This document shows positions 43,652 through 52,096 of a DNA stretch of 64,000 nt, piece after piece; the first letter of the stretch is position 1; every line of letters starts with the position of its first letter. Source of the DNA: Candidatus Nitrospira allomarina (GTDB taxonomy: Bacteria; Nitrospirota; Nitrospiria; Nitrospirales; UBA8639); contig NZ_CP116967.1 of assembly GCF_032050975.1 (NCBI RefSeq), forward strand, positions 3,221,001-3,285,000. The letters run 5' to 3'. The notes below the pieces were generated by a model, which saw only the letters and a program-made list of their open reading frames with translations, was not told where the DNA came from and did no database searches. The translations under genes and the position numbers were made by a program.

Positions 43652-44677
43652 GTGAAACCGATTCCAATTTCCATTAAATCCTTCAAGCAATTTCGAGAGG
43701 CCGTGTATGCCTTTCGATTGCCAAGAATTATTTTCTCAGCATTAGATTTAAATTTATTTACGAAGATGAATGATCGGGTTTGGACGATTCCGGAGTTAGC
43801 CAAACGAGTACGGGTGAGCCAACGTGGACTCGCAATCTTGTGCCGGAATCTTGCCAGTGTCGGATTATTGGTCAAGTCACAATCAGGATACCGTCTTGCT
43901 CCGTTTTCCAAACGCTATCTCCAGGAATCCAGCAGGGACTTTCAAGGAGACTATCTGGCGCTCATGCAGCGTCAATGGAGCGAATGGTCTCATTTAACGG
44001 AAGTGATTCGTGTCGGTCAGCCACTGGACAGCCAGGAACCGGAAACCACGGAATATCGACGATCGTTTTCCTGGGCCATGCATCACCGGTCGATCCAACC
44101 GGCCAGGGAGGTTGCCCAACAGATTTCTCTGAAGGCGGATCGCACCCTACTGGATTTAGGCGGGGGACCTGGCACCTATGCTCTGGCCTTCTTAGCGCAA
44201 AATCCAACACTTCACGTTACAGTGATGGATAGGCCTGCCGCTCTGGACGTCGCGCGTACGCTGGCGGAACAGTCTTCTTTGGGTAGTCGCTTGACCTATC
44301 AAGCTGGTGATTTTTTAACAGCACGCATCTCAGGAACCTATGATGTTGTCTGGTATTCCAATGTCCTTCATATCTATTCTCCTGCAGACAACTTGAAAAT
44401 TTTCAAAAAAATTAAACGAATTCTCAATCCTGGTGGACGGCTGCTCATTCAAGATACCTTTTTGCAGGATCCAAACGAACTTCAGCCCCTTGAAGCCAAT
44501 CTCTTTGCCGTCTCCATGTTGCTCTATACCCAACGGGGCAACACCTATTCCGTGCGAAATGTTCGAGAGTGGCTTCAAAGAGCTGGACTCACTCATTCAC
44601 GGCTTCTTCATCTGAAAAAGGGAACAGGGGATTGGGAGGGTCAATTGGTTGAAGGACGCCTTCCGCGTTCTGGATAG
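43652..44677 (+). CDS. SAM-dependent O-methyltransferase-like protein
   Basis: A 341-residue class I methyltransferase with the layout of the caffeate/hydroxyneurosporene O-methyltransferase family. An N-terminal winged-helix dimerisation domain (TIPELAKRVRVSQRGLAILCRNLASVGLL) is followed by a SAM-binding domain with motif I LLDLGGGPGTYALAF, VTVMDRP, and LLIQDTFL. It starts with GTG and lacks a clear Shine-Dalgarno sequence. The substrate is unknown. It is the last of a plus-strand run from 40862. Confidence 0.82.
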   Translation: MKPIPISIKSFKQFREAVYAFRLPRIIFSALDLNLFTKMNDRVWTIPELAKRVRVSQRGLAILCRNLASVGLLVKSQSGYRLAPFSKRYLQESSRDFQGDYLALMQRQWSEWSHLTEVIRVGQPLDSQEPETTEYRRSFSWAMHHRSIQPAREVAQQISLKADRTLLDLGGGPGTYALAFLAQNPTLHVTVMDRPAALDVARTLAEQSSLGSRLTYQAGDFLTARISGTYDVVWYSNVLHIYSPADNLKIFKKIKRILNPGGRLLIQDTFLQDPNELQPLEANLFAVSMLLYTQRGNTYSVRNVREWLQRAGLTHSRLLHLKKGTGDWEGQLVEGRLPRSG

Positions 44678-44778: not shown

Positions 44779-46959
44779 TCAATCAAGATTGGGGAGTTCG
44801 GACGTTGGGGACACACTCTGGGCTGGAGAAACTGATGTGGGTGCTGGAGAACTTGGGAGATTCACAAGAAACGTGGTTCCCCCTCCTTTCACACTTTGGA
44901 CCTCAATACTTCCCCGATGTTCTTGAATGATTTGATGGGCAATGGCCAATCCTAAACCTGTTCCCTCATGTTCCTGACTCAAGTGCTTTGTGGTGAAAAA
45001 AGGATCAAATATATGGTCGATGTCTTCCGGATTTATCCCTTTCCCAGTATCGTGTATGTCCACCTGCACCCAACCCTGAGCCACACCTGATCCAATCTTT
45101 CGAGTCCGCACCGTTAACACCCCACCCTCCGGGAGCATGGCTTCCACGGCATTAAACAACAGATTGAGGAACACCTGCTTCAATTGCTGCCGATCGGCAA
45201 ATACCTTTGGCAACCCATGAGCCAAATCTGTCTCGACAACAATTAATTCATGAGAGGGTCGAATTCTGAGGGTATACAGACAGGATTCCACAATATCATT
45301 GAGATCTTCTTCCTTGAGAAACGGTTCGATGGGTTTGGCATAATCCAAGATCTCTCGAGTGAGCCGCTCAATTCGAAACACATCTTCTTTGACGACCTTA
45401 CTGAATCGAACCAGAAACTGTTCATCATCCTTTCGTTCAGGTGCCAGATCCACAAAGGCTTTAATCGAGGTCAAGGGATTTCTAATTTCGTGAGCCAATC
45501 CGCCGGCCATGGTCTCCAGAGAACGAAGGCGATCCGTTCGACGAACTAACGATTGGGAGCGCTTGAGCTCTTCATAAAGCAAGGCATTGTCTAACGCTAC
45601 GGACGCTTCTTGGGATAAGGTTGTTAATAAATTCAAATCCTGGGTCGTGTACCCCCCTCCACTTTTTGTATTAGGTCCAAACACACAAAAACCTAATAGC
45701 CGGGTTTTGTTAACCAAGGGCAAACAAACTTCTGTTCCAATATGGGCGAGCTGCGCGATGACGGCTTCCGAGTCGGAGTTGATGGTAGAGAGTTCCAATT
45801 CATGGATGACAAAACAGGACGTGCCTTGTCTCCACATTTCGAGCAACGTAGGCGTTTTATGCAAATAGAGAACTGGAAGATCTGTGGTGGATTTTCCAAA
45901 GCTGGATACCGGTCGATAATCCTGACTGCTGGAGCTTCGTAAATATAAAACTCCCCATTGCAATCCTAATGTGGGACAAATGGATTCCACGATAGTTGCC
46001 GTCAAATCTTTTAATTCCAAGATGGAGAGGAGGGACTTAGAGAAATGTACCACAGTTTCATGTCGATTATATCGTTCCTTGAACAGTGATTTCGTGATTA
46101 ATGTTTTTGCTTCCCGCTTCAAGGAGGACGCTCCAAGCACCAAGATGAGCAACACGGTAAGTTCTACAAAAGAATAGGCGATATTAATTTGTCCAAAATA
46201 CAGACTCTGGCCAAGGAGGAGGATCGGATAGGCAGGGAAAGCCACGAGTGCCAACAAGAGGCCTCCCGTGATGCTTCTTTCAACAGCCGTCCCGAGATCC
46301 ATGAGTCTGTATCGTAGGAGCGTATAGGCGACGACCGACGTATAAACCGTCAGTAGGATTGTGCCGTTTGGTGGGATTTCAATTCCATACCAGAGCGGAA
46401 AAGTCGTCATTCCCCCTAAGTATGCAATGACTGATCCGATAGTGAGAAGGAAAAATCGGGAACGTTCAGGACCAGTTCTGGTCCGAGCTCCCCGATAAAG
46501 CAACCACGTGCCATAAATAGTCGATAAGCCAAATCCCAGGAGATAGACATGAAAAAAGGGACCGGGTTTCGGCCAAAATGGAAAATCACCGACATGATGG
46601 ACATCAGCCACGAAATAGGTGGTAAAATTCGCGCCGAAATAAATAAGACTTGCTCCCCATCCAAAACGGATAATCCATCTGTTTGCTTCCACATCATCCA
46701 ATAAGGTCAGGACGTGCCACAGGTAGGCTGGGGGAAGAAAAATGGCTCCGGCCATTAACAATCGAACAAAGAGCAGGGCAAGGTCGTGAGTGGAGGAAAG
46801 GTGCCATGCGCAATACCCGTATCCCCAAATGGCGGCAGCTAAACAATACAGGGCATAGGCTTGATGCTTGGAGCTATGAGGATTTTTGGCATAGACAATA
46901 AGGCCGGAGGCTGTGGCGGCCAGACCATTCAGGAGTCCGCTGAAGGCGTAAAAATTCAC
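44779..46959 (-). CDS. 7TM-GAF histidine kinase
   Basis: A 726-residue membrane sensor kinase. Residues 1-220 form about seven transmembrane helices of the 7TM histidine kinase N-terminal type. Two further helices lie at residues 230-280. A GAF-like domain follows at 300-460. The HisKA dimerisation helix carries the phospho-accepting His490 in GGLAHEIRNPLTSIK. The ATPase domain has NLLFNAVEAM, DTGKGI and GTGLGLAIAHQII. The tail is Ser/Pro-rich. The start codon is GTG. No response regulator is adjacent, so its partner lies elsewhere or the kinase feeds a shared regulator. Confidence 0.88.
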   Translation of the reverse strand: MNFYAFSGLLNGLAATASGLIVYAKNPHSSKHQAYALYCLAAAIWGYGYCAWHLSSTHDLALLFVRLLMAGAIFLPPAYLWHVLTLLDDVEANRWIIRFGWGASLIYFGANFTTYFVADVHHVGDFPFWPKPGPFFHVYLLGFGLSTIYGTWLLYRGARTRTGPERSRFFLLTIGSVIAYLGGMTTFPLWYGIEIPPNGTILLTVYTSVVAYTLLRYRLMDLGTAVERSITGGLLLALVAFPAYPILLLGQSLYFGQINIAYSFVELTVLLILVLGASSLKREAKTLITKSLFKERYNRHETVVHFSKSLLSILELKDLTATIVESICPTLGLQWGVLYLRSSSSQDYRPVSSFGKSTTDLPVLYLHKTPTLLEMWRQGTSCFVIHELELSTINSDSEAVIAQLAHIGTEVCLPLVNKTRLLGFCVFGPNTKSGGGYTTQDLNLLTTLSQEASVALDNALLYEELKRSQSLVRRTDRLRSLETMAGGLAHEIRNPLTSIKAFVDLAPERKDDEQFLVRFSKVVKEDVFRIERLTREILDYAKPIEPFLKEEDLNDIVESCLYTLRIRPSHELIVVETDLAHGLPKVFADRQQLKQVFLNLLFNAVEAMLPEGGVLTVRTRKIGSGVAQGWVQVDIHDTGKGINPEDIDHIFDPFFTTKHLSQEHEGTGLGLAIAHQIIQEHRGSIEVQSVKGGGTTFLVNLPSSPAPTSVSPAQSVSPTSELPNLD

Positions 46960-47211: not shown

Positions 47212-49542
47212 TTATGCCACTTGCTTCAGAATCTCTGGCAGCTGGTTTCGGATAGAGCATGGTTCTGCATTTTGGATGATTGGCTTTTGCGCTGGTGTGC
47301 AGACAATAGGTTTGTCTAAAACAACGAGATACGCTTGTCCTGCAAAAGTTGAAAAAATACCCGCATTCGTACAGCCCAGGGTGGCGATGATCGATTCCCA
47401 TTGGGTTTGATCATAAAAACAAAATTGCCCTTCTTTTTCGGCCTGTCGGATTTTCCCGTAATTATTCAATAGATCCCGTGCTTCCTCTCGTTGTTGTGGG
47501 AGAACAGCACTACTGACCAGACTCTGGTAGATGCCGGAAAAGTCCCCATTCGGTTTTAAATTGGAAATAACGATTCGTCCCCCTGGAGCGAGAATACGAT
47601 ACAGTTCTCGTAAGGTAGCGCCTGGATCCTGGACATATCCAATCACCAGATTGGAGACAATCCGGTCGAATCGGTTGTCGGGAAAGGGGAGCGGCTGACC
47701 TAAATCTACGTGCGCCCATGCCTTTGAGACGAAGGGTGTCGGCGAGGTCATGCCATGTTGGCAATTTGTGGTGGCGGCACGCATGGCGTTGTTAGCCCGT
47801 TTCAACGCGTCAGGAACGACATCAATCCCCACATATTGAATGTACTTCTCTAGGAACGGGATCCCAGTCGAAATGGTAGAGGAAAGCCTATTCAAAAAAT
47901 ATAAGCCGGCATTGCCATTTCCACATCCGGCATCCAGAAACCGTTGGCCAGGAGTGATGGGGCCTAAGACATGAAATACATGATCAAGAAGTTTCACATA
48001 ATCCCGGCATTGGGCTACCGACTGGAAGTGGCCCAAGTAATCCTGCCAAAAGCCGGTGCCGACGTCGGTCTCGGCCTGTTGTTGTTGAGCAGATTTTTCC
48101 CGTCGATTTTGGCGTCCCAGGTCTAATCGATTGGGGGTGTGGATCACATCCGGCTTTGCTTTCTGATTCACTTGCTCATGGCATCGTGCAATGAGTCGTT
48201 GATAGGTTTCACGGGCTCTTTTGGGGTTTTCTTGTAGGCGATGCAAGGCATCTGGTACCACCATCCAATGCTCAAGATGTCGATCCAATGCATTCCGAAA
48301 CGCTTGAAGATCATCGGGAGCAACCCAGGCATCCTTTTCAGCGGAAACCAGGATGACAGGGGAGGTTAGGGATTTCGCATCAAACAGTGTGTGCTCAAGC
48401 GTGACAAATTTGTTGGCAATGGCATCACCCAAAAATTGATTGCCCACATTGAAGCCCAAAAAATTTGCCGAGGCAGGGCACTGCTCATTCCCATAGGCTG
48501 CAAAGAGATCTTCCTGATGAACCGTGGCTGCAGACCGTTGGACATTGACAATGCTCATGAGCATGATCAACAGGGATAATGATGGACATTCGGCCTCGGC
48601 TCTGAGAGCGACCCGCGAGGCCAAGCTGGCCGCCACACCGATTATGGCTGAGTGCGGCCAAGTAGCCTTCACATATCGGGTTACAGTCTGAAAATCATTT
48701 TTCATTGATGAAAGGGATACCTGATAGTGCAGTCCATCACTCTCGCCGACATGATTGGTATGGTCATAGCGCACGACTTGAAATCCATTACTGGCAAAGT
48801 AATACGCCAAGGTCAAATAATCCCGTTTTGTTTCCCCATACCCCGGGGCAATAACGACGACAGGTCTTTCTGTTGAATTTCCCTCAATCGGTTGGTCATG
48901 GTAGGCACTAATCCGCTGCCCATTGCCTTTTTTAATGGTGAGACGACTGCTGGATACGCCCGTTTTTTGAAGAATAAGGGACCCACCCTTCACTTCTTTT
49001 TCCTTCTCACGAAAAGAAACAATTGATATTGCGTCGGAGAGTTCGTGGTTAAGCATTTTCCAGGATGAATTGAACGAACCATTCAAAACATGTCCCTGTA
49101 CCATGAGACTCTCTTCTTCAGGGAGCAGAACTCTCGTACCGGACGAAAAGGAACCCATGGCATCATTCTCTGTTGGGCAGTCTAAAAGAATGTTAGTTGT
49201 CCCTTCCCAAGCGGTTTGACCTGGTTCCACCTGTATATCTTTAATCATTCCATGAAACTTTTTGAGAGGGAGATCTTGACCTGAAATGCCATATTCCAAC
49301 TCAATGATCTGCGAGAGTTCTATGGGAGGGAATCCGGTCAAACGCAATAGCATATTGTTTTTGTGCCCTCCAACAAGATACCCGTCCCAAACCCCTCCCA
49401 GGCAATGCAAAGAGAAGGGAAGTGGCGAGAGGTCACGTATTCCAGAAGGATCACCAGGAACTAACTCCTGAGATACCTGCTTCAATCCAGCAAATTGATG
49501 CATTGAAGTTATTCCTGCCAACTCTGGTGTCAATGTGCTCAT
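47212..49542 (-). CDS. LuxD-like acyl hydrolase fused to a SAM methyltransferase
   Basis: A 776-residue cytoplasmic fusion. Residues 1-200 are an uncharacterised N-terminal domain with beta-strand character. Residues 208-460 are an alpha/beta hydrolase resembling LuxD, the myristoyl-ACP thioesterase of bacterial luminescence: VVVIAPGYGETKRDYLTLA, NGFQVVRYDHTNHVGES, then GVAASLASRVA with nucleophile Ser306, Asp404 in SAEKDAW and His434 in DALHRLQEN. Residues 495-720 are a class I methyltransferase with FLDAGCGNGNAG (535 on), DRIVSNLVIGYV and APGGRIVIS. It may release and methylate an acyl or polyketide product, which is inference. No lux genes or carrier proteins are near. Confidence 0.75.
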   Translation of the reverse strand: MSTLTPELAGITSMHQFAGLKQVSQELVPGDPSGIRDLSPLPFSLHCLGGVWDGYLVGGHKNNMLLRLTGFPPIELSQIIELEYGISGQDLPLKKFHGMIKDIQVEPGQTAWEGTTNILLDCPTENDAMGSFSSGTRVLLPEEESLMVQGHVLNGSFNSSWKMLNHELSDAISIVSFREKEKEVKGGSLILQKTGVSSSRLTIKKGNGQRISAYHDQPIEGNSTERPVVVIAPGYGETKRDYLTLAYYFASNGFQVVRYDHTNHVGESDGLHYQVSLSSMKNDFQTVTRYVKATWPHSAIIGVAASLASRVALRAEAECPSLSLLIMLMSIVNVQRSAATVHQEDLFAAYGNEQCPASANFLGFNVGNQFLGDAIANKFVTLEHTLFDAKSLTSPVILVSAEKDAWVAPDDLQAFRNALDRHLEHWMVVPDALHRLQENPKRARETYQRLIARCHEQVNQKAKPDVIHTPNRLDLGRQNRREKSAQQQQAETDVGTGFWQDYLGHFQSVAQCRDYVKLLDHVFHVLGPITPGQRFLDAGCGNGNAGLYFLNRLSSTISTGIPFLEKYIQYVGIDVVPDALKRANNAMRAATTNCQHGMTSPTPFVSKAWAHVDLGQPLPFPDNRFDRIVSNLVIGYVQDPGATLRELYRILAPGGRIVISNLKPNGDFSGIYQSLVSSAVLPQQREEARDLLNNYGKIRQAEKEGQFCFYDQTQWESIIATLGCTNAGIFSTFAGQAYLVVLDKPIVCTPAQKPIIQNAEPCSIRNQLPEILKQVA

Positions 49543-49599
49543 GCGATCCCCCGCTGAAAATAAGTGTTATTACCTACTTTTTAAGGCAAGACTTTCCCT

Positions 49600-49694
49600 G
49601 GATCCCACTAGATCCTGATGTCTGCATCAGCCTGTACTAGTAGACAGGCGAGAGATGAAACGACTTACATCGTATCGTCATTGATACCGGTGTA
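49600..49694. repeat. four consecutive hairpins
   Basis: GGATC/GATCC (49600-49615, 6-base loop); CTGATG/CATCAG (49615-49630, 4-base loop); GCCTGT/ACAGGC (49630-49649, 8-base loop); and an 11-pair stem with one wobble and one bulge (49666-49694, 6-base loop). The first three share their boundary bases. Strand and function are unknown. It could be the 5' leader of the fusion gene on the minus strand or a small RNA. Confidence 0.6.
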
Positions 49695-49945
49695 TGGGCC
49701 ACCCCGGAATTGGCATCAATTTTACTCTCTTGGATACGACACTAGAGCAACCTGAATGCCAGAATTTTCGAACAAAAGGCTCGAATCCATTTTCAAGGGA
49801 AAATCTCAGAATTTACTAGGAAAATTTTGCCTGAATATTTTTTACCGCAAATCACCGTGCAGATTTTTTGAAGTCTTATCTGTCGGTCTACTGACGATAA
49901 AATCAAAAGAGCGTTGATCTCCTGACAGGACATTGTTCTTTTTCA

Positions 49946-49974
49946 TTGACACTCCTTCCTCTCCTACCTAAAAT
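49946..49974 (+). promoter_or_regulatory. promoter of the EF-G-like gene
   Basis: TTGACA (49946-49951), exactly 17 bases and TAAAAT (49969-49974). The start near 49982 leaves a leader of about 18 bases that still contains GAGAGGAGG before the ATG at 50000. Confidence 0.7.
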
Positions 49975-49999
49975 TCAAGGAAATTGAGAGGAGGTTCGC

Positions 50000-52096
50000 A
50001 TGCCACACGAATCCGCCCCACCCATCCGTAACGTGGTCATTTGTTCCTACCCGGGGGCAGGAAAGACCACCCTTTGTGAAGCACTAGCCTTTTCCACGGG
50101 AGTCATCCCGACCATGGGGTCCATTCCTCAGGGAAATACCATGGGTGATTTTGAACCCGAAGAGGTCCACAGGCATCATTCCATTAGTTCGACCATCTGC
50201 CAGTTCGAATGGCAGGGCACAAAAGTCAATATTATAGATACACCGGGAATGAGCGATTATGGCTTTGAGGTTCAATCCGCCCTCAGGGCGGTGGATGGCG
50301 TGGTGCTTGTTGTAGGGGCCAGTACAGGGCTACGGTCAGAAATCGAACGAGTCTGGGACCTTATTCAGGAACACGAACTTCCCTGTCTCCTGTTTGTTAA
50401 TGAACTGGATAAAGAACGAACAGACTATCGCTCGACTTTGGCAGAGTGTGAAAAAACATTGGGATTCACCGCAGTTCCAATCACCATTCCTGTTATAAAA
50501 GAAGGCACGCTGACTGGGGTAATTGATCTCATTTCGAGGAGTGTCATAACTCCGGCCTCCGGCACGCCCAAAACCCACCAAACAGAGATTTCTCCAGAAC
50601 ACCAATCCATGGCTAGTGAATTCCGGCGCCGAGCTATGGAACAGGTGGCAGAAACGAATGATCAATTGGTGGAAAAATATCTCTCCCAAGGTGAGATCTC
50701 AAATGAAGACTTACAGGATGGATTGACGCTCGGCACATTAGACGGGAAGTTTGTTCCGGTGTTGTGCGGATCTGCTATTCGCAATATTGGAACCACAACC
50801 CTATTCGATGCGATACAACGTTATCTCCCGTCTCCTTCCGATCGTTCCAGTCTTCATCCCAACATCGGCCTGCAACCTCAGACCCATGACGAAGGTCAAC
50901 GAAAATCTGATCCTCATGATCCATTTTCAGCCTTCGTCTTTAAAACCACCATCGATCCATTTATGGGGCGTCTATCATTTGTGCGAGTGCTGTCCGGGAC
51001 CTTACAGGCAGATTCAGGATTTTATAATGCCTCCCGGCAGACCAAGGAGAAGGGTGGACATCTTTTTTTCTCGGTGGGCAAGAAGCATCACCAGGTTAAT
51101 CAGGTCTCCGCCGGAGATATTGTGGCCATTGGTAAATTAAAAGATACTCAAACCGGCGATACCCTTTGCGATGAACGACATTCCATTATTTTCCCAGGAC
51201 TGAAAATAGCGCGGCCGGTCATGTCGTATGCCTTAGAGGTAAAAAGCAAGAATGAAATTGACAAAGTCAGTTTAGGTCTTCATAAATTAGTTGAAGAAGA
51301 TCCCTCTCTCGAGTTTCTCCGGAATGAAGAGACAAAGGAAATGCTGTTAAGTGGAGTAGGGCAGAGCCACATCGATGCCACTTTAGACAAACTGAGACGC
51401 AAGTATGGTGTTGAGGTGGACTTGCACATGCCGAAAGTCCCCTATAAGGAGACGATCCATCGTATGGCTCAGGCCCAAGGAAAATATAAAAAACAAACCG
51501 GTGGACATGGACAATATGGAGATTGTTGGCTACAAATTGAGCCTCTTCCCCGAGGGGCTGGATTTGAATTTCACAACAAAATTGTTGGTGGGGTCATACC
51601 ACGGAATTTCATCCCTGCGGTGGAAAAGGGAGTGATCGAGGCTCTGCAACATGGGATTGTTGCCGGATTTCCCATCGTGGACATTCGCGTGGCTGTCTAT
51701 GATGGATCTCACCATCCAGTTGATTCTTCGGAATTGGCCTTTAAAGTGGCCGGATCAATGGCCCTCAAGCATGCCCTGGAGGCCGCTCACTGCACGATTC
51801 TTGAACCCATCATGTCCGTAGATGTGCTAGTCCCGGATGATTTGGTAGGAACCGTGATTGGAGACCTTAACTCGCGCCGTGGACGCATACAGGGAATGGC
51901 GACTAAGGGACACAATCAAATTGTGAAGGCCTTTGTGCCGTTAGCGGAAATGCTGAAGTATGCTCCTTCCTTGACGTCCATGACGGCTGGAAAGGGTAGT
52001 TATGTGATGGAGTTTTCGGGCTACGAGGAGGTACCGAAGGATTGTCTTAATCGTATTGTGGAAGAACATAAAAAGGAAACTGTTTCGTCCCACTGA
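50000..52096 (+). CDS. EF-G-like GTPase (FusA2-type) with altered G motifs
   Basis: A 698-residue protein with the full EF-G domain order. The GTPase domain has a P loop SYPGAGKTT (residues 16-24). G3 reads DTPGM (80-84), where EF-G has DTPGH, so the catalytic histidine is missing. G4 reads NELD (134-137), where NKxD is the rule. Domain II (DPFMGRLSFVRVLSG) and domains III-V follow (GGHGQYGDCWLQI, GDLNSRRGRIQGM). It belongs to the EF-G2-like paralogues of unknown role, not the translocase. The start is strongly supported by GAGAGGAGG. It is divergent from the LuxD-like fusion. Confidence 0.85.
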   Translation: MPHESAPPIRNVVICSYPGAGKTTLCEALAFSTGVIPTMGSIPQGNTMGDFEPEEVHRHHSISSTICQFEWQGTKVNIIDTPGMSDYGFEVQSALRAVDGVVLVVGASTGLRSEIERVWDLIQEHELPCLLFVNELDKERTDYRSTLAECEKTLGFTAVPITIPVIKEGTLTGVIDLISRSVITPASGTPKTHQTEISPEHQSMASEFRRRAMEQVAETNDQLVEKYLSQGEISNEDLQDGLTLGTLDGKFVPVLCGSAIRNIGTTTLFDAIQRYLPSPSDRSSLHPNIGLQPQTHDEGQRKSDPHDPFSAFVFKTTIDPFMGRLSFVRVLSGTLQADSGFYNASRQTKEKGGHLFFSVGKKHHQVNQVSAGDIVAIGKLKDTQTGDTLCDERHSIIFPGLKIARPVMSYALEVKSKNEIDKVSLGLHKLVEEDPSLEFLRNEETKEMLLSGVGQSHIDATLDKLRRKYGVEVDLHMPKVPYKETIHRMAQAQGKYKKQTGGHGQYGDCWLQIEPLPRGAGFEFHNKIVGGVIPRNFIPAVEKGVIEALQHGIVAGFPIVDIRVAVYDGSHHPVDSSELAFKVAGSMALKHALEAAHCTILEPIMSVDVLVPDDLVGTVIGDLNSRRGRIQGMATKGHNQIVKAFVPLAEMLKYAPSLTSMTAGKGSYVMEFSGYEEVPKDCLNRIVEEHKKETVSSH

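Follow-up and report, generated by a model that had tools for sequence, protein, structure and literature searches.

The row of four hairpins at positions 49600–49694 of the window (the whole 64,000-nucleotide stretch of the Candidatus Nitrospira allomarina genome analysed here) probably belongs to a structured, cis-acting 5′ leader that is transcribed from a sigma-54-type promoter and tunes the translation or the stability of a LuxD-like message, a reading to which we give a probability of about 0.6. The putative promoter and one hairpin of the row, HP1, rest on their conservation in related genomes, and from them we infer the control step.

Genomic context of the hairpin row

The row sits within the 457 bases that separate a minus-strand LuxD-like gene (47212–49542) from a plus-strand paralogue of EF-G (50000–52096), in a genome assembled as a single contig of 4,553,057 bases (G000 in our set). 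The minus-strand gene encodes a 776-aa fusion of a LuxD-like acyl transferase/hydrolase (Pfam PF02273 at 1.8e-26) with methyltransferase families. Against the NCBIfam LuxD model the fusion protein scores 95.7 bits, far below the cut-off of 420, and its N-terminal 179 residues (49006–49542, minus strand) match no Pfam family at E 1. A protein search with the fusion found relatives in 117 of the 196 genomes of the order. Larger fusions may exist, since many of the LuxD-like open frames in family f3 are of about 1,400 aa; one genome (G024) carries a second LuxD-like match, on contig C42.

The LuxD-like gene is followed on the same strand by a sensor histidine kinase gene (44779–46959, minus strand), whose best families, AtoS, ZraS and PrsK, all remain below their cut-offs (144.7 bits against the PrsK model, where 300 are required). 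The two genes adjoin in the same order in locus L003 too. Convergent to the kinase gene lies a second methyltransferase gene (43652–44677, plus strand), which is BchU/FlxJ-like, again below cut-offs.

On the other side of the interval, the EF-G paralogue has a separate sigma-70-type promoter-like site (49946–49974, plus strand) that agrees with the consensus at 11 of 12 positions. It is the one such site that a scan of 49500–50050 returned, compared with 0.9 expected in shuffles, and it is conserved in those rows of alignment A1 that are in register. Because the EF-G gene has this promoter-like site of its own, the hairpins are probably outside the EF-G leader.

A sigma-54-type promoter site and the predicted leader

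On the minus strand, the LuxD-like gene is preceded by a sigma-54-type −24/−12 site, CTGGCATTCAGGTTGCTCT (49744–49762), with GG at −24, GC at −12 and 10 bases between them. With the first nucleotide placed 12 nt after the −12 GC, transcription is predicted to start at 49735 and to produce a 5′ leader of 193 nt (49543–49735, minus strand), the position of which is derived from that of the sigma-54-type site. In 21 loci the leader length predicted in this way is 187–230 nt; in G016, a further locus, the leader would have about 99 nt.

By DNA similarity, the interval could be traced in 12 of the 48 genomes of the family, our own included and all from one genus, and each of the 12 carries the site on the minus strand. 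Among the 30 loci obtained by protein search, a strict pattern located it in 21, at 213–256 bases before the start codon, and looser patterns recovered it in five more genomes of the family (G016, G017, G026, G027 and G028). In the family, 27 genomes have a protein match, and the site stands before the gene in 26 of them; the contig of the remaining one, G034, begins inside the gene. Within the genome of the window, the pattern YTGGCAY-N5-TTGCTCT occurs three times and its reversed control not at all. The genome also encodes sigma-54 itself (one Sigma54_DBD match, 201.3 bits) and returned 30 matches to the sigma-54 activator domain, 27 of them above 200 bits; since all 14 control genomes matched as well, the weak activator-domain matches mean little. 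Taken together, these data support a conserved sigma-54-type promoter, predicted from its motif, before the LuxD-like/methyltransferase gene. In family f3 the site was found in 0 of 12 stretches before homologues, a weak negative because the true gene starts there are uncertain.

Near the end of the predicted leader, a Shine-Dalgarno-like GGGGGA (49547–49552, minus strand) could be read by eye. Just before this ribosome-binding site, the leader alignments contain an AU-rich near-palindrome, TAGGTAATAACACTTA (TAGGTA..ACTTA; 49561–49576, minus strand); it has drifted but can still be recognised in the 20 leaders of alignment A6 and in those of A7.

Candidate DNA sites upstream of the promoter

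A candidate activator (enhancer) site of the form YGT-N10-ACA (49881–49896, minus strand) recurs upstream of the −24 element. It is found 107–154 bases upstream of that element in 21 of 23 loci, with a spacing mostly of 125–136 bases before the promoter, and is missing in G017 and G026. In G016 it stands at 192 bases, and in G027 and G028 the half-sites are 11 bases apart. Counted in its exact form within 260 bases, the site is present in 22 of 26 loci and missing in four of the five distant ones.

The NifA-type upstream activating sequence is TGT-N10-ACA. Our candidate has the same spacing and begins with TGT in 8 of 21 loci, which is a resemblance only; in the 13 others, this genome included, the first half-site differs and is CGT. 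About 31 bases further upstream there is a possible second, degenerate copy, TGTCAGGAGATCAACG (49912–49927, minus strand), read by eye. Between the activator candidate and the promoter, alignment A3 (12 genomes) displays a strongly conserved block, AGGCAAAATTTTCCTAGTAAATTCT (49808–49832, minus strand), which could be a DNA-bending site or the site of a second regulator. For the hairpins, the DNA-binding array that the earlier note had considered finds no support; both candidate sites on the DNA (49744–49762 and 49881–49896) are upstream of them.

Four hairpins in this genome

The four hairpins announced for this interval are all present. HP1 (49600–49615, minus strand) shares one boundary with HP2 (49615–49630, minus strand) and HP2 another with HP3 (49630–49649), as had been described, and the fourth, HP4, occupies 49666–49694. 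The largest hairpin had been given 11 pairs, close to the 12 pairs and one bulge that we obtained by folding HP4 on the plus strand. The row is also unusually dense, in line with the claim of a density above chance. Scanning for perfect stems of at least 5 pairs with at most one G-T, we obtained hairpins covering 68 of the 95 bases, an extent equalled in 1 of 2557 overlapping 95-base segments of the 64 kb (possibly the row itself), while four such hairpins are present in 21 of these 2557 segments. The earlier note saw no T run on any of the hairpins, and a search for intrinsic terminators, defined as a GC-rich hairpin followed by a T run, gave 0 in 49500–50050, where 0.5 were expected.

HP1 is kept by compensatory change

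Comparison with relatives shows HP1 to be under selection, its predicted pairs being kept while the sequence changes between clades. A hairpin of at least 5 pairs is found at this place in 17 of 17 leaders of the same genus, with its 3′ end 58–63 nt before the start codon. The letters of the arms differ among these leaders (GGATCT/AGATCC, GGGTCC, GGGTTC/GAACCC), and genera g9 and g10 have yet other arms (GGCAG/CTGCC, GCCTG/CAGGC, GTCCG/CGGGC). In the 17 same-genus leaders 94.1% of the cells are paired and 17 show a double change. These two counts and the covariation score were each as high in 0 of 500 shuffles, which ignore the relatedness of the genomes; two further measures, the number of pairs with a double change (as high in 139/500) and of further pair types (499/500), do not exceed the shuffles.

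Adding g9 and g10 (22 loci, 18 distinct rows) gave 95.6% paired cells, 28 double-change cells and a covariation of 0.858 versus 0.190, values that are inflated because the hairpin frames of these two genera were chosen by eye. In this larger set the same three measures were again as high in 0 of 500 shuffles and lay above every slid control, the numbers of pairs with a double change (123/500) and of pair types (20/500) being again less extreme. When the leaders were scanned 55–100 nt before the start for 16-nt hairpins of a defined quality, a criterion fixed after the hairpin had been seen, 16 of 21 had one, against 0.92 expected. Minimum-energy folding of the leaders of G017, G026 (with four pairs), G027 and G028 likewise yields HP1. 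It is present in 24 of the 26 leaders examined, from four genera, and absent in those of G019 and G016, which have no HP1 row in any alignment. Two leaders that form the hairpin, G046 (15 nt) and G017 (17 nt), are left out of alignment A8, and in alignment A4 the row of G046 is shifted by one base through an alignment error.

HP2 to HP4 are private or decaying

Covariation in relatives, the check proposed in the earlier note, singles out HP1; the row of four as such does not carry evolutionary support. Judged from the alignments, the other three hairpins are private or decaying folds inside the predicted leader. HP2, with the core stem TGATG/CATCA, has 81.8% of its cells paired in the 11 leaders of clade 1 and is whole in 4 of them. 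HP3, a 20-bp palindrome that looks like a lux box, is whole only here among 11 genomes: 56.3% of its cells are paired in the 11 leaders, and two of its six pairs, the fourth and the fifth, form only in this genome. HP4 has decayed in relatives, with 5 to 11 of its 12 plus-strand pairs kept in 10 of them, and part of its sequence is used instead by a minus-strand helix of the consensus. G030, with a leader that looks like those of the other clade, is not part of the alignment of 11 leaders (A2).

A suggested 5′ domain and the choice of strand

Upstream of HP1, the leader is suggested, not proved, to form a 5′ domain. Its closing helix would pair a 5′ arm GAGAG (49725–49729, minus strand) with a 3′ arm CUCUC (49650–49654, minus strand) that lies within a pyrimidine-rich stretch; 96.4% of the cells are paired in the 11 leaders, with no double change. 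A second helix, with its 5′ arm at 49712–49720 (minus strand), pairs with 49680–49688 in the fold of this leader and reaches 94.7% paired cells in the consensus, also with no double change. The full set of clade 1, composed of the closing helix, the inner helix and HP1, has 94.8% of its cells paired and one double-change cell. In clade 2 (six leaders), the corresponding set is formed by a closing stem with 11+6 pairs, an inner hairpin and HP1; it is 93.5% paired, likewise with one double-change cell, and the alignment energy is −29.0 versus −5.5 for column shuffles. Apart from HP1, the helices are almost free of variation, so that covariation is hardly informative for them.

Folding energy alone does not settle the strand, since antisense sequences, too, are more stable than their shuffles: alignment z-scores are −2.1 for sense versus −1.96 for antisense, and −10.3 versus −7.3 in a second alignment. 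Over 21 individual leaders, the mean folding z is −1.46 for the sense strand, −0.62 for the antisense strand, −0.08 for the DNA upstream of the promoter and −0.03 for coding sequence. Values of −2 or below are reached by only 8 of the 21 in sense, with the leaders of G023 and G024 above 0, and by 2 of the 21 in antisense; the whole predicted minus-strand leader of this genome folds with a z of −2.59. The wobbles of HP1 across the 22 loci comprise five cells that are G-U on the minus strand versus one A-C, which would be the plus-strand wobble. We favour the minus-strand reading because of the promoter site, the leader z-scores and these wobbles. The structured RNA leader of the earlier note gains support through HP1, and is corrected to a minus-strand leader of about 193 nt with nearly invariant helices that extend past the noted row to 49729.

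Searches beyond the training leaders

A covariance model, R1, was built from 17 leaders, from HP1 to the start codon. Run against the 196 genomes, it recovered the 17 training leaders plus 17 further matches, with E-values of 0.03–0.84. Two of these (G017, E 0.055; G026, E 0.48) come from two genera that the training set does not cover, and fall in the leader of the LuxD-like gene. The remaining 15 lie on contigs other than that of the gene, or in genomes that the protein search did not return, and we take them for chance after inspecting four. Nine genomes of the family carry the gene but did not contribute to the training set, and in seven of these R1 missed the leader (G016, G019, G021, G023, G024, G027 and G028). 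No second copy of the leader was found in its own genome, either by DNA similarity (next E 0.86) or with R1 (next E 2.6).

No Rfam family exceeded its gathering score in 49500–50050, the best match having 23.8 bits versus 44; two sub-threshold matches are on the plus strand, outside the leader. A literature search for Nitrospira with LuxD gave no paper, and among the titles listed for Nitrospira with sigma-54 or riboswitch none concerns the leader, which is not proof of absence. In the survey of sigma-54 regulons PMC12316311, the main text as available contains no word beginning with “Nitrospir”.

Proposed mechanism and alternative readings

Mechanistically, sigma-54 RNA polymerase would start at about 49735 on the minus strand, driven by an enhancer-binding protein that is possibly bound at 49881–49896. 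The leader of about 193 nt would fold into a 5′ stem-loop domain followed by the 16-nt HP1, the latter indicated by compensatory change and the former only suggested. Acting in cis after transcription, it would affect translation initiation or mRNA stability, with a protein or a small RNA most likely binding to HP1 and its conserved 3′ flank. Tentatively, the leader might even represent a novel type of cis-regulatory RNA, so far observed in this one family of Nitrospirales; HP1, its conserved flank and the 5′ domain would then sense a metabolite, a protein or a small RNA and thereby gate production of the enzyme.

We consider it unlikely that the leader is a passive spacer that senses nothing, with HP1 serving only to protect the mRNA or to leave the ribosome site accessible. 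Such a spacer would agree with the drift, between genera, of the leader sequence outside the kept elements, and with the lack of a match to any known RNA family. However, the length is held within the 187–230 nt range in the 21 loci (though G016, outside these, would have about 99 nt), and both the unpaired blocks that follow HP1 and the TAGGTA..ACTTA motif are partly conserved among leaders.

The odds are rather poor, too, for a masking of the Shine-Dalgarno sequence, in which the pyrimidine tract (approximately 49645–49657) would pair with GGGGGA/GAGGGA until a signal frees the site. Several single-sequence folds do pair CCCUC with GAGGG before the start, and in this genome the duplex reaches −13.3 kcal/mol. 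Nevertheless, when tracts picked by an automatic rule were combined with their own or with swapped partners in 21 loci, the energies were −10.1 and −9.9 kcal/mol, respectively (P 0.33), and the pairing is weak in the three g9 loci (−5.9 to −6.4). Masking by the tract is therefore unsupported by the partner-swap test.

An element of the plus strand, either a leader or a small RNA heading towards the EF-G gene, appears very improbable. Folded alone, the 95 bases of the row have a z of −2.88 on the plus strand versus −1.32 on the minus strand, so that these bases by themselves would have pointed to the other strand. Yet the EF-G promoter-like site is about 250 bases further on, with no other sigma-70-type site in 49500–50050, HP4 is not kept in relatives, and the wobble cells of HP1 fit the minus strand.

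We give hardly any credit to control of the gene by a leader peptide, encoded in a short upstream frame from GTG or TTG: 10 of 11 leaders have a GTG at column 38 of A2, and a 12-codon frame runs to a stop in 8 of the 11 (one of the 8 without the start codon), but the same frame has 21 codons in this genome and 20 in G043, and none of the ATG codons is shared by more than 9 of the 11. Binding of the leader by CsrA, to which we attach just as little weight, was dropped: csrA is present in the genome, but A(N)GGA motifs outside the Shine-Dalgarno sequence are not enriched (30 in 21 leaders versus 26.7 expected) and are lacking in 6 of the 21.

Quorum-sensing control of the LuxD-like gene, with a LuxR-type receptor bound to HP3 (GCCTGTACTAGTAGACAGGC), is close to refuted: the palindrome resembles the lux-box consensus, and with no mismatch allowed the pattern has two matches in the genome, HP3 being one, but the palindrome is private to this genome, it lies downstream of where transcription is predicted to start, and the genome has 0 matches to the autoinducer-binding domain PF03472 (one control genome, E. 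coli, matched) and none to LuxI (though all controls were silent as well).

Relation to known systems and significance

Returning to the preferred reading, a sigma-54-dependent structured leader, the nearest described layout that we found is the PEP-CTERM box, the PrsK-PrsR sigma-54 regulon of Proteobacteria, which combines a sigma-54 site with an activator motif according to the available part of Haft et al. (2006, PMC1569441). In both, the region upstream of the gene is long and has a recurrent putative activator site ahead of the −24/−12 site; here the next gene on the same strand is the sensor kinase that matches PrsK below the cut-off. In the wording of that source, on the other hand, the PEP-CTERM motif ends with TTTACA about 63 bases before the promoter, whereas here YGT-N10-ACA is mostly at 125–136 bases; comparing by eye with the same wording, we saw no motif 1 ending in TTTACA upstream of this gene. 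The gene controlled is different as well, being a LuxD-like enzyme here. As the activator motif differs, we do not assign the locus to the PEP-CTERM box regulon. Sigma-54 dependence of one PEP-CTERM box gene has been shown in Aquincola, as stated in the available part of PMC9850573.

With cis-acting structured 5′ leaders in general (riboswitches and protein- or sRNA-bound leaders), the locus shares a covarying hairpin at a steady distance, conserved flanks and association with one gene, differing in that no Rfam family is over the gathering score here. With respect to the LuxD acyl transferase of luminous bacteria, the likeness lies in the acyl-transferase domain match; here, in contrast, the domain is fused to a methyltransferase, and the LuxD model scores far below its cut-off. 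The product of the LuxD-like/methyltransferase enzyme may be a fatty-acid-derived compound. Overall, a structured leader behind a sigma-54-type promoter is ordinary in kind and new in detail.

Genetic tools are absent for Nitrospirales, according to the available part of a paper describing newly cultured marine members of the order (PMC10579370); consequently, a practical way in is a surrogate host, where the putative promoter, activator site and leader are testable. The locus also illustrates that, where one genome packs hairpins densely in a row, most of them can be private to it: of the four here, one is clearly under selection. If our reading is true, a LuxD-like/methyltransferase gene of marine nitrite oxidisers would be under two layers of control, sigma-54 with its activator and a structured leader.
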